Source of the DNA: Trueperaceae bacterium
Lineage (GTDB): Bacteria; Deinococcota; Deinococci; Deinococcales; Trueperaceae
Reading direction: 5' to 3'
Length of the DNA: 64,000 nucleotides
NCBI GenBank assembly: GCA_023954415.1
Contig: JAMLIB010000005.1
Coordinates: forward strand, 124,001-188,000
The position numbers were made by a program, and so were the translations under genes. Shown here piece by piece: positions 45,265 through 47,574 of this stretch. A model generated the notes under the pieces. That model had not been told where the DNA came from, did no database searches, and worked only from the letters and a program-made list of their open reading frames with translations. Each line of letters begins with the position of its first letter. Position 1 is the first letter of the stretch.

Positions 45265-45735
45265 TCAGCCCTTGGACTCGCCCTTCGCCTCGCCCTTGTC
45301 CTCGAGCTGCTTGATCTCCTCGATGAACCGCCCGACCGACTCGAAGTCGCCGTAGACGCTCAGGAAGCGGATGTAAGACACGCTGTCGGTGTCCTGCAGG
45401 AACTGGAGGACGCGCCTGCCGATCTCCTCGCTCGCTATCTCGGGCGTGCCCGTCTCGTCCTCGAACGAGTAGGCGAACTCCCGCAACTGCTTCTCGCTCA
45501 CGGGGCGCTTGTTGCAGGCGATGCGCAGTTTGTCGAGCAGCTTGTCCGGGTTGAACGCCTCCAGGCGCCCGGAACGCTTGCGCACCAGGAGAGCCTCGAA
45601 CTGGGCGCGCTCGTAGGTGGTGAAGCGGCGCGAGCACGCTACGCATTCACGCCGCCGCCGGATGGCGGCGCCCTCGTCGGAGGGGCGCGAGTTGATCACG
45701 CGCGTGTCCTCGGCCGAGCAGTACGGGCACCTCAC
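45265..45735 (-). CDS. nrdR: Transcriptional repressor NrdR
   Basis: A 156-residue repressor of ribonucleotide reductase genes. It has a zinc ribbon with C3, C6, C31, C34 (MRCPYCSAEDTRV, CVACSRRFTTYER) and an ATP-cone (about 49-135), RKRSGRLEAFNPDKLLDKLR. A Lys/Glu-rich tail follows. It senses ATP/dATP and binds NrdR boxes; none is nearby. The start is GTG 6 nt after the stop of the upstream SDR-like gene, so the two are co-transcribed. It ends 6 nt from the convergent sbcC. Confidence 0.95.
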   Translation of the reverse strand: MRCPYCSAEDTRVINSRPSDEGAAIRRRRECVACSRRFTTYERAQFEALLVRKRSGRLEAFNPDKLLDKLRIACNKRPVSEKQLREFAYSFEDETGTPEIASEEIGRRVLQFLQDTDSVSYIRFLSVYGDFESVGRFIEEIKQLEDKGEAKGESKG

Positions 45736-45741
45736 GGCCGA

Positions 45742-46911
45742 TCAGGGGCGCCGACGCACGAGCGGCCACGGCTCGCCCAGGTCGTCGTCCTCGAGCAGGT
45801 CGTCGTGGACCGCGCCCTGGAGGCTACGCAGGTCGCCGTAGAGGGCGTTGGCGGACTCGAGGCCGGACAACGTCGTGGCCCCGTCCTCGGCCACCAGGTG
45901 GCGGAGGGCCGGACCGTCTGGCAGGCCGAGGTCGGCGGCCCAGTCGTCGAAATAGTCGAGCGCGCCGTCTTCCAGGTCGTCCTCGAGGCCCGCCCCCTCG
46001 TCGTCCAACTCGTCGAGCGTCACGGCGGAGGCCGGCCGTCTCAGGCCGGGGGCGGACTGCAACGCCGTGGCGTCGAGGCCAAGGTCCTCCGACGCCAGCT
46101 CGTCGGAGTCGAGGTCCGCGGGCTCGGAGTCGTCCAGCCCGCCGTCGTCGACCGCGAGGCCGTCCGGCTCGGTGGCTTCCTCCCAGCCGGGCCACCGCTC
46201 CTCGTCGCTCTGGCGCACGGACGTGTCCAGCGCGGCCCGGACCTCGGGGAGCAGGTTCTCGGCGATGCGCGGAGGCTGCGGGAGCTCGACGGCCACGGAC
46301 TGGCCGCTAACGCCCGCCGACTCCTGCGAGCCGAGGAAGCGCACGGCCCTCACCAGGGCTTGGTCGTGCCGCGGGTCGGAGGACGCGCGCGACGGCGTGA
46401 CCAGGTTCACGCGCGGATAGGCGAAGCGTTGCCTGAACCCCTCGACCAGCTCCCTCAAGGCGCCCTGGACCGCGCGCATCTGCACGGAGCCTTCCACCGG
46501 CGGCGCGACGATCACGACCCAACCGCTGCCCAGGAGGCGAGAAGCGGCCTTGAGGATCAGGTAGCTCGAGCGGACGTCCTCGGCCATGAGCTCGAAGAAC
46601 TCGCCCTCGGCGAGGTCCTCGAAGGGCGTCGTGCTCACCTGGGCGGCCAGATGAACGACGCCGCCGATGGTGCCGAAGATCTCCATCACCTTGTGGTAGG
46701 CGGAGAGTACGTCCATCTGCGTGGTCGTGTCCGTCTGGATGGGGATGGCCTGGCCGCCCAGCTCCTCGACCTCCGCGGCCGTCTTGGCCGCGAGATCGAC
46801 GTCGCTGTCGGCACATACGACGTGGTAGCCGGAGCGCCCGTACGCGAGGGCGACGGCCCGACCGAAGCCGGTACCGACGTTAGTCACCAACACGACCCGG
46901 GTGCTCTCCAT
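45742..46911 (-). CDS. Degenerate short-chain dehydrogenase fold with long acidic tail
   Basis: A 389-residue protein. Residues 1 to about 225 are SDR-like: TNVGTGFGRAVALAYGRSGYHVV resembles the TGxxxGxG cofactor motif, D60-like TDTT and HLAAQ (NAAG equivalent) follow. The catalytic YxxxK is missing, since the stretch at VQMRAVQGALRELVEGF has no Tyr or Lys at the expected positions. From about 235 to the end there is an Asp/Glu-rich tail with short repeats such as DELASEDLGLDA and DELDDEGAGLEDDLED, probably disordered. It may be a non-enzymatic NAD-binding regulator or scaffold. The ATG is leaderless behind TATCCT (6 nt). It is cotranscribed with nrdR. Confidence 0.7.
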   Translation of the reverse strand: MESTRVVLVTNVGTGFGRAVALAYGRSGYHVVCADSDVDLAAKTAAEVEELGGQAIPIQTDTTTQMDVLSAYHKVMEIFGTIGGVVHLAAQVSTTPFEDLAEGEFFELMAEDVRSSYLILKAASRLLGSGWVVIVAPPVEGSVQMRAVQGALRELVEGFRQRFAYPRVNLVTPSRASSDPRHDQALVRAVRFLGSQESAGVSGQSVAVELPQPPRIAENLLPEVRAALDTSVRQSDEERWPGWEEATEPDGLAVDDGGLDDSEPADLDSDELASEDLGLDATALQSAPGLRRPASAVTLDELDDEGAGLEDDLEDGALDYFDDWAADLGLPDGPALRHLVAEDGATTLSGLESANALYGDLRSLQGAVHDDLLEDDDLGEPWPLVRRRP

Positions 46912-46917
46912 TCCCGT

Positions 46918-46923
46918 AGGATA
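46918..46923 (-). promoter_or_regulatory. SDR-nrdR leaderless -10 box
   Basis: TATCCT on the minus strand with 6 nt to the ATG. Confidence 0.6.
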
Positions 46924-46953
46924 CGACGCACCAAGGGCACCCTCAACTAGCGC

Positions 46954-47010: not shown

Positions 47011-47574
47011 ATGTTCAGGCGACGCAAGGAAGAAGCGGGGGCCAAGCCTCCCCCCGAGCCGTTCACGTACGTACACCGCGACACCGTCCTGACGGGCGAC
47101 GTGGAGGCGAAGGGCCGGGTGCGGGTCCACGGCACCGTGCGCGGCGACCTCAGGGTGGCGGGTGTGCTCGAGGTGGCGCAGTCCGGCCTCGTCGAGGCGG
47201 CGAGCCTTGAGGCCGACGAGATCAAGGTCATCGGGAAGGTCGTGGCGAAGCTGGTCGTCGCGCGCGGCAAGGTCGAGGTCTGGAAGGGCGGGGAGCTCGT
47301 CGGCGACGTGCGGGCTGCGGCCCTGGACATCGAGGACGGCGCTCGGTTCACGGGGAGGAGCGAGATGATCGCGCCCGCCCAAGCGGCCATGGCCGAGGCG
47401 CCGGAGGACGTCGCCGAGGCGCGAGCCGACCCCGGGGCGCATCACGGCGGGGAGGCAGGGGCCAAGGGCGAGGCGGCTACCCGCGTCTCTGCCCATCCCA
47501 CGGCCGTCGAGCACGCGCACGCCAGGGGCGCTTCGAGGGCGCAGGACCCGGTCACGGAGGCCGACCTGCTCTAG
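47011..47574 (+). CDS. Bactofilin
   Basis: A 187-residue bactofilin (DUF583). A short basic N terminus precedes the right-handed beta-helix core (about 22-120), with repeating G-x-V/V-x-G spacing as in LTGDVEAKGRVRVHGTVRGDLRVAG and SLEADEIKVIGKVVAKLVVARGKVEV. The Ala/His/Glu-rich C-terminal tail (about 125-187) is probably disordered. Bactofilins polymerise without nucleotide and organise cell-wall or cell-shape factors. The ATG has a full AAGGAGG ribosome-binding site 6 nt upstream. It is monocistronic and divergent from the SDR gene. Confidence 0.9.
   Translation: MFRRRKEEAGAKPPPEPFTYVHRDTVLTGDVEAKGRVRVHGTVRGDLRVAGVLEVAQSGLVEAASLEADEIKVIGKVVAKLVVARGKVEVWKGGELVGDVRAAALDIEDGARFTGRSEMIAPAQAAMAEAPEDVAEARADPGAHHGGEAGAKGEAATRVSAHPTAVEHAHARGASRAQDPVTEADLL

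Follow-up and report, generated by a model that had tools for sequence, protein, structure and literature searches.

NrdR, SDR-like proteins and the Thermus gene pair

Loss of catalysis within the SDR fold has a known precedent in the HSCARG/NmrA-type NAD(P)H-sensing pseudo-SDRs, whose SDR-like Rossmann domains are devoid of the catalytic Tyr and which are proposed to act as sensors.

The transcriptional repressor NrdR senses nucleotides via its own ATP-cone, as described in the available text of PMC9110341. No protein partner of NrdR turned up in two papers on NrdR as far as their accessible text goes, nor did an SDR partner in the literature searched. The "NRDR" that appears in some papers (e.g., PMC6587779, available in part) is an unrelated mammalian SDR that shares the name only. 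The closest described counterpart of the locus considered here is the TTHA0133-TTHA0134 pair of Thermus thermophilus HB8, in which an SDR-family protein followed by a NrdR-family regulator occupies positions 1 and 2 of an operon, according to the accessible part of PMC7662524. There, the pair is only a candidate TTHB099 target, the expression change in the mutant not being significant (adjusted p 0.674 and 0.350). A proposed function for the SDR-nrdR pair was not found in the available portions of the literature on NrdR combined with SDR, Thermus or Deinococcus.

The SDR-nrdR locus

In the window, i.e., the whole 64,000-nucleotide stretch of Trueperaceae DNA analysed here, the original prediction placed an SDR-like open reading frame together with nrdR at positions 45265-46911, and both genes are indeed present. 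The first gene of the operon (45742..46911, minus strand) encodes a 389-aa pseudo-SDR, recognised as an open reading frame with a Pfam adh_short match and an SDR fold predicted by AlphaFold2. It comprises a conserved SDR core (residues 1-233; 46213..46911, minus strand), supported by alignments to solved SDRs, and an acidic C-terminal tail (residues 234-389; 45745..46212, minus strand) that is predicted to be disordered and is specific to the window's own family, f1. The SDR stop codon is separated by a 6 bp gap from the GTG start of nrdR (45265..45735, minus strand), which encodes a 156-aa repressor composed of a Zn-ribbon and an ATP-cone (PF22811, 71 bits, and PF03477, 53.4 bits, in Pfam). 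This protein scores 147.7 bits against the TIGR00244 equivalog, for which the cut-off is 124.65, and is therefore an ordinary NrdR. Describing the SDR as unannotated, as had been done, went too far: the accessible part of PMC7662524 already gives the T. thermophilus pair as an operon. A bactofilin gene (47011-47574, plus strand; Pfam Bactofilin PF04519, 2.2e-18) lies divergent from the SDR operon.

Distribution and linkage to nrdR

The orthologues fall into five families: f1 (Trueperaceae-like), f2, f3 (Deinococcales MAGs), f4 (Thermaceae MAGs) and f5 (Thermus/Meiothermus/Calidithermus). A profile search retrieved the SDR from 106 of 111 genomes of the phylum, a second profile adding a fragment in G059 to make 107, and NrdR was found in 105. 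Co-occurrence of the two genes in other Deinococcota had been set beforehand as a check on their association, and it is confirmed: both are present in 105 of the 111 genomes, the SDR alone in two (G040 and G042), nrdR alone in none and neither gene in four. They stand side by side in 100 of the 105 two-gene genomes (99 scored automatically, plus G053, where the profile match ran past the SDR stop codon), and the other five have them on separate contigs. Among these five, the SDR of G032 runs off the contig end, nrdR in G006 and G059 sits close to or right at the start of its contig, and a C-terminal piece of the SDR directly precedes nrdR on the second contig of G018. In the case of G024, nrdR is located near the end of another contig, the sequence of which stops ~115 bp upstream of nrdR. 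A phage-integrase-family open reading frame (PF00589, 4.8e-15; L096:7305-8537) follows the G024 SDR at the place where nrdR would be expected, which suggests that an element has been inserted between the two genes. In G059, the intact nrdR is followed ~700 bp later by another nrdR-like match, which is partial (L106; G059:C62:1164-1448). A complete 16S rRNA gene lies ~100 bp after nrdR in two of four scanned loci (L082 and L090, both Thermus-type), an arrangement that would explain assembly breaks at this place.

Outside the phylum, none of 182 genomes yielded an orthologue (293 genomes searched in all, with at most eight candidates scored per genome), because the two matches near 1e-23 are ordinary SDRs, compared with 4e-79 for the weakest full-length member. 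A wider contig scan, covering 80 of 89 loci, separated 33 family-level loci, all from Thermus, Meiothermus, Calidithermus or Thermaceae/Deinococcales MAGs, from 47 ordinary SDRs, which include the sole Trueperaceae locus of that scan. No Deinococcus member appeared among the 80 of 89 loci scanned, a result that is uninformative either way as the scan misses distant members. With three ordinary SDRs as the root, a gene tree places all 45 orthologues in a single clade, in which f1, f2, f3 and f5 are each monophyletic (f1 with a low support of 0.43) and f5 is nested in f4; these clades point to vertical inheritance.

When the open reading frames of at least 90 aa lying within ~5 kb on each side were clustered for 38 loci of the five families, window included, the only clusters common to at least three families were the SDR, nrdR and a frame antisense to the SDR. 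Four small clusters span two families, with two or three loci each (f4-f5 sharing being uncounted). Bactofilin was considered as a third conserved partner and rejected, its apparent spread over all families having arisen from the SDR-antisense frame merged with it in clustering; by direct sequence search, it is present in the window and in five of eight further f1 loci, with no match in the loci of the other families.

The SDR fold and its missing catalytic pair

The Pfam adh_short match of the 389-aa protein (E 3.6e-17) is limited to residues 5-135, and adh_short, adh_short_C2 and KR are its sole Pfam matches at E up to 1. The protein also falls far below the cut-offs of the best 25 of 173 matched SDR models. 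Using a 45-row alignment, AlphaFold2 predicts an SDR core with pLDDT values of 95-98 per ten-residue block over residues 11-210. The nearest solved structures are ordinary SDRs, with TsaC (8sy8_A) being the best (Z 29.7, 201 residues, 1.6 A); no orthologue was recognised in the PDB, where the top profile match (E 1.6e-24) is again an ordinary SDR.

Alignment to solved SDRs supports the view that this SDR is catalytically dead and lacks YxxxK. In the alignment to 3edm, the catalytic Tyr and Lys fall on Met145 and Gln149, while in the alignment to 5thq they fall four residues later, on Gln149 and Arg153; a third printed alignment to a solved SDR ends before the Tyr/Lys site. The 3edm register is preferred because the A-A-L that follows the Lys in ordinary SDRs then aligns with G-A-L. 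YxxxK is absent from the window protein in either printed register, and none of 59 orthologues has a Y...K in the region equivalent to residues 125-180, whatever the register. Among these 59 proteins, the preferred register puts M, T, V, L, D or N at position 145 and R, Q, G, H, L or D at position 149. Further changes affect the surroundings of the former active site. In the catalytic-Ser region, 50 of the 59 orthologues have Pro at position 138, the window protein having PP at 137-138. The NNAG region has become G-V-V-H, with His87 in all 59. A PSR motif at 173-175 (P173 in 59, S174 in 55 and R175 in 58 of the 59) stands where classical SDRs have a PG motif.

The adenosine side of the cofactor pocket is partly kept. 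The original prediction that a cofactor-like motif is kept holds for G15 and G17, present in 45 of 45 aligned sequences, and fails for the first Gly of the TGxxxGxG loop, which is Asn in the window protein (TNVGTGFG) and is kept in 19 and lost in 26 of the 45. D35 and D61 are found in 41/45 and 43/45, respectively, and 13 columns of the core are invariant across the 45 sequences. The core dN/dS of 0.03-0.17, obtained from seven pairs all within f1, indicates purifying selection. On sequence grounds, then, the 389-aa protein is a pseudo-SDR without the catalytic Tyr/Lys pair. As all five families share it, the loss of catalysis is probably older than the diversification of the order.

Promoter, NrdR boxes and genomes lacking nrdR

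Upstream of the SDR gene, a -10 element of sequence TATCCT (46918..46923, minus strand) ends 6 nt before the ATG, as in a leaderless-type promoter, and a -35-like TTGAGG (46941..46946, minus strand), picked out by sequence inspection, lies 17 bp before it. A TANNNT motif ending 3-11 nt before the start codon is found in 30/30 f1 loci, 17/17 f5 loci, 3/4 f3 loci, 1/4 f2 loci and 1/4 f4 loci, against a background of 5% at random nearby positions, which points to a leaderless-type promoter in three of the five families (f1, f5 and f3). Leaderless genes with this motif 6-7 bp upstream account for ~30% of open reading frames in the phylum, according to the available text of PMC12340547, so the promoter type of the SDR gene is ordinary in this respect. 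Stop/start overlaps of -4 bp between the SDR gene and nrdR recur among the loci. In the window, there is no intergenic room for a separate nrdR promoter, and an internal one within the SDR gene is possible.

Each of the nine nrdR-positive genomes tested (G000, G012, G020, G036, G039, G044, G047, G069 and G090) has one or more RNR genes preceded by a pair of NrdR-like boxes at a spacing of 31-32 bp, a count that is partly circular as these genomes also supplied the boxes for the matrix. The pair at the C11 RNR gene of G000, with boxes 31 bp apart, scores 25.1 (p ~0.005, which is the floor of 200 single-base shuffles). In G020, and likewise at the second of the G000 RNR loci, one of the two paired boxes is poor; no significant pair lies just upstream of the longest open reading frame at G047b, G069b, G090a or G090c, the G069b pair being elsewhere in the stretch. 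Two separate NrdR-like box pairs occur upstream of the RNR gene at G000:C11 (L245). Autoregulation of the SDR-nrdR operon through NrdR boxes was considered and rejected, as 0 of 59 loci reached p<0.01 (lowest p 0.040).

The genomes in which the pair is incomplete differ in what they retain. G042 (97% complete) has an intact SDR open reading frame without nrdR, followed by a convergent gene. Among the 45 sequences, no terminal branch is longer than that of its SDR (0.864; next 0.640), and PTH replaces PSR in this protein; both features are compatible with relaxed constraint in this single case. G040 (58% complete) has an SDR without nrdR directly downstream. G028 (96% complete) has neither gene and no NrdR-box pair before its RNR gene; indeed, a significant pair was found at RNR neither in G028 (p 0.87) nor in G042 (p 0.24). 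In G007, G022 and G110, nrdR is absent from the assembly, yet NrdR-box pairs are retained before RNR genes. Co-loss of SDR and nrdR is thereby rejected for these three, in which an assembly gap probably hides the two genes; the G022 contig begins inside the neighbouring bactofilin gene. G028 would thus be the sole good case of joint loss among the four, although bactofilin is missing there as well, so a gap at the locus is possible.

The acidic tail

What had been described as about 150 acidic residues is actually a tail of ~156 residues that holds 45 Asp/Glu and 8 Lys/Arg. The C-terminal 120 aa of the window protein are nevertheless the most net-acidic of 351 gene-like open reading frames, in a sample of 464 kb from the 3.2-Mb genome with heuristic gene calls. 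Past residue 233, the tail measures 27-181 aa and is net acidic in 30/30 f1 orthologues (L012 and L036 being cut by contig ends), while no comparable tail exists in 29 aligned loci of the other four families. Its pLDDT of 39-64 per ten-residue block in the AlphaFold2 model predicts disorder, folding on binding being still possible, and its dN/dS is 0.28-0.68, compared with 0.03-0.17 for the core in the same seven f1 pairs, tail alignments being less reliable. Being confined to one family, predicted to be disordered and fast-evolving, the tail is unlikely to carry the conserved function of the protein. Within the genus of the window protein and the next one (g5), GLPxGPALRHLV and LYGDL (tail residues 327-346 and 357-361) are conserved, with ALRHLV found in five of six tails and the sixth tail truncated; they constitute a possible binding motif.

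A model for the SDR-nrdR pair

The explanation that we prefer, tentatively and with rather less than even confidence, is that of an ancient, vertically inherited non-catalytic SDR that leads a two-gene operon with nrdR, binds an adenine nucleotide and tunes NrdR. Catalysis would have been lost before the order diversified, the gene being kept as the lead of a pseudo-SDR-nrdR operon. From the retention of G15, G17, D61 and, mostly, D35, next to a rebuilt nicotinamide/substrate side (H87, PP137-138 and S174-R175), we infer that the Rossmann pocket may still hold an adenine nucleotide, either NAD(H) or adenylate. The nucleotide-bound SDR would then contact NrdR or NrdR oligomers and tune RNR repression, a modulation suggested by the tight coupling of the two genes, which recurs among the loci. 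The joint absence of SDR, nrdR and box pair in G028 and the divergent SDR of nrdR-less G042 also count in its favour. As for the acidic tail, it would have been added in one lineage, outside this core function. Several points count against modulation, i.e., NrdR elsewhere is described as sensing nucleotides itself, no significant box pair lies at the operon and the first Gly of the cofactor loop is lost in 26/45 sequences; the SDR of G042, maintained without nrdR, speaks against an obligate partnership. A more far-reaching version, which we regard as rather unlikely, is that RNR repression is a two-protein affair throughout the order: the dead SDR would sense the adenine nucleotide/NAD(H) state, sit on NrdR and couple redox/energy status to deoxynucleotide synthesis, with H87, PP137-138 and S174-R175 forming a new sensing or docking surface.

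The best alternative to NrdR modulation is plain co-expression, to which we give serious weight, short of an even chance. The SDR would then be a non-catalytic adaptor or scaffold whose role is unrelated to RNR control and which shares a transcript with nrdR. In some replicons, an annotated ribD or nusB gene, apparently unrelated, overlaps nrdR or adjoins it, and the persistence of the SDR in nrdR-less G042, as well as the lack of a significant NrdR-box pair at the operon in all 59 loci, fits such a reading. It accounts less readily for a pair that is adjacent across five families when no other neighbour is common to three or more of them, or for the fact that G042, nearly complete and devoid of nrdR, has the fastest-evolving SDR, albeit as a single case.

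The remaining explanations concern the protein itself. It could still be an enzyme that employs non-canonical residues, such as His87 and Arg175, in the old active-site cleft; the conservation of these residues (59/59 and 58/59) and purifying selection on the core are in line with this, but the lack of Y...K in all 59 orthologues, the Pro at position 138 in 50/59 and the replaced NNAG region make it improbable. Constraint on the core (dN/dS 0.03-0.17 in seven pairs; 13 invariant columns over 45 sequences) also argues against the SDR gene being a mere leader that provides nrdR with a promoter and coupled translation while its protein stays idle, even though most loci have a -10 element at the SDR start codon and the -4 bp overlap is common. 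This reading is very unlikely, and we judge just as poorly the proposal that the acidic tail mimics DNA and thereby draws NrdR away from its boxes. A tail missing from the four other families (29 loci), predicted to be disordered, variable in length (27-181 aa) and fast-evolving (dN/dS 0.28-0.68) can hardly explain an order-wide linkage to nrdR, however acidic it may be in the window (first among 351 sampled open reading frames) and in the 30/30 f1 orthologues; the original prediction on this point is unsupported.

If the preferred reading of a nucleotide-binding SDR that tunes NrdR were true, redox/energy status would be linked to the supply of DNA precursors in a phylum noted for its tolerance of stress. 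Descriptions of NrdR present it as a self-contained nucleotide sensor, and an order-wide dead enzyme tied to nrdR is a candidate accessory; we know of no earlier one, and a dead SDR would be the first. The pair is accessible to test in the genetically tractable Thermus thermophilus.

Comparison with known systems

The SDR protein has the Rossmann fold in common with classical, FabG-like SDRs (PF00106 adh_short) and partly keeps their glycine-rich loop and adenine-pocket Asp. It differs from them in having neither YxxxK nor NNAG and in carrying mostly Pro in the catalytic-Ser region. With the HSCARG/NmrA-type proteins, it shares an SDR-like Rossmann domain without the catalytic Tyr, whereas the partners and the domain of life differ; no NmrA-type relationship is apparent from Pfam, where the NmrA-type family gives no match to the SDR protein at E up to 1. 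The gene order is the same as in TTHA0133-TTHA0134, the HB8 pair being compared by its description in the accessible text, and the Thermus-type orthologues included in this analysis have neither the tail nor the catalytic pair. Finally, in comparison with NrdR as defined by TIGR00244, the second gene encodes an ordinary NrdR, and the RNR genes of these genomes carry the paired boxes.
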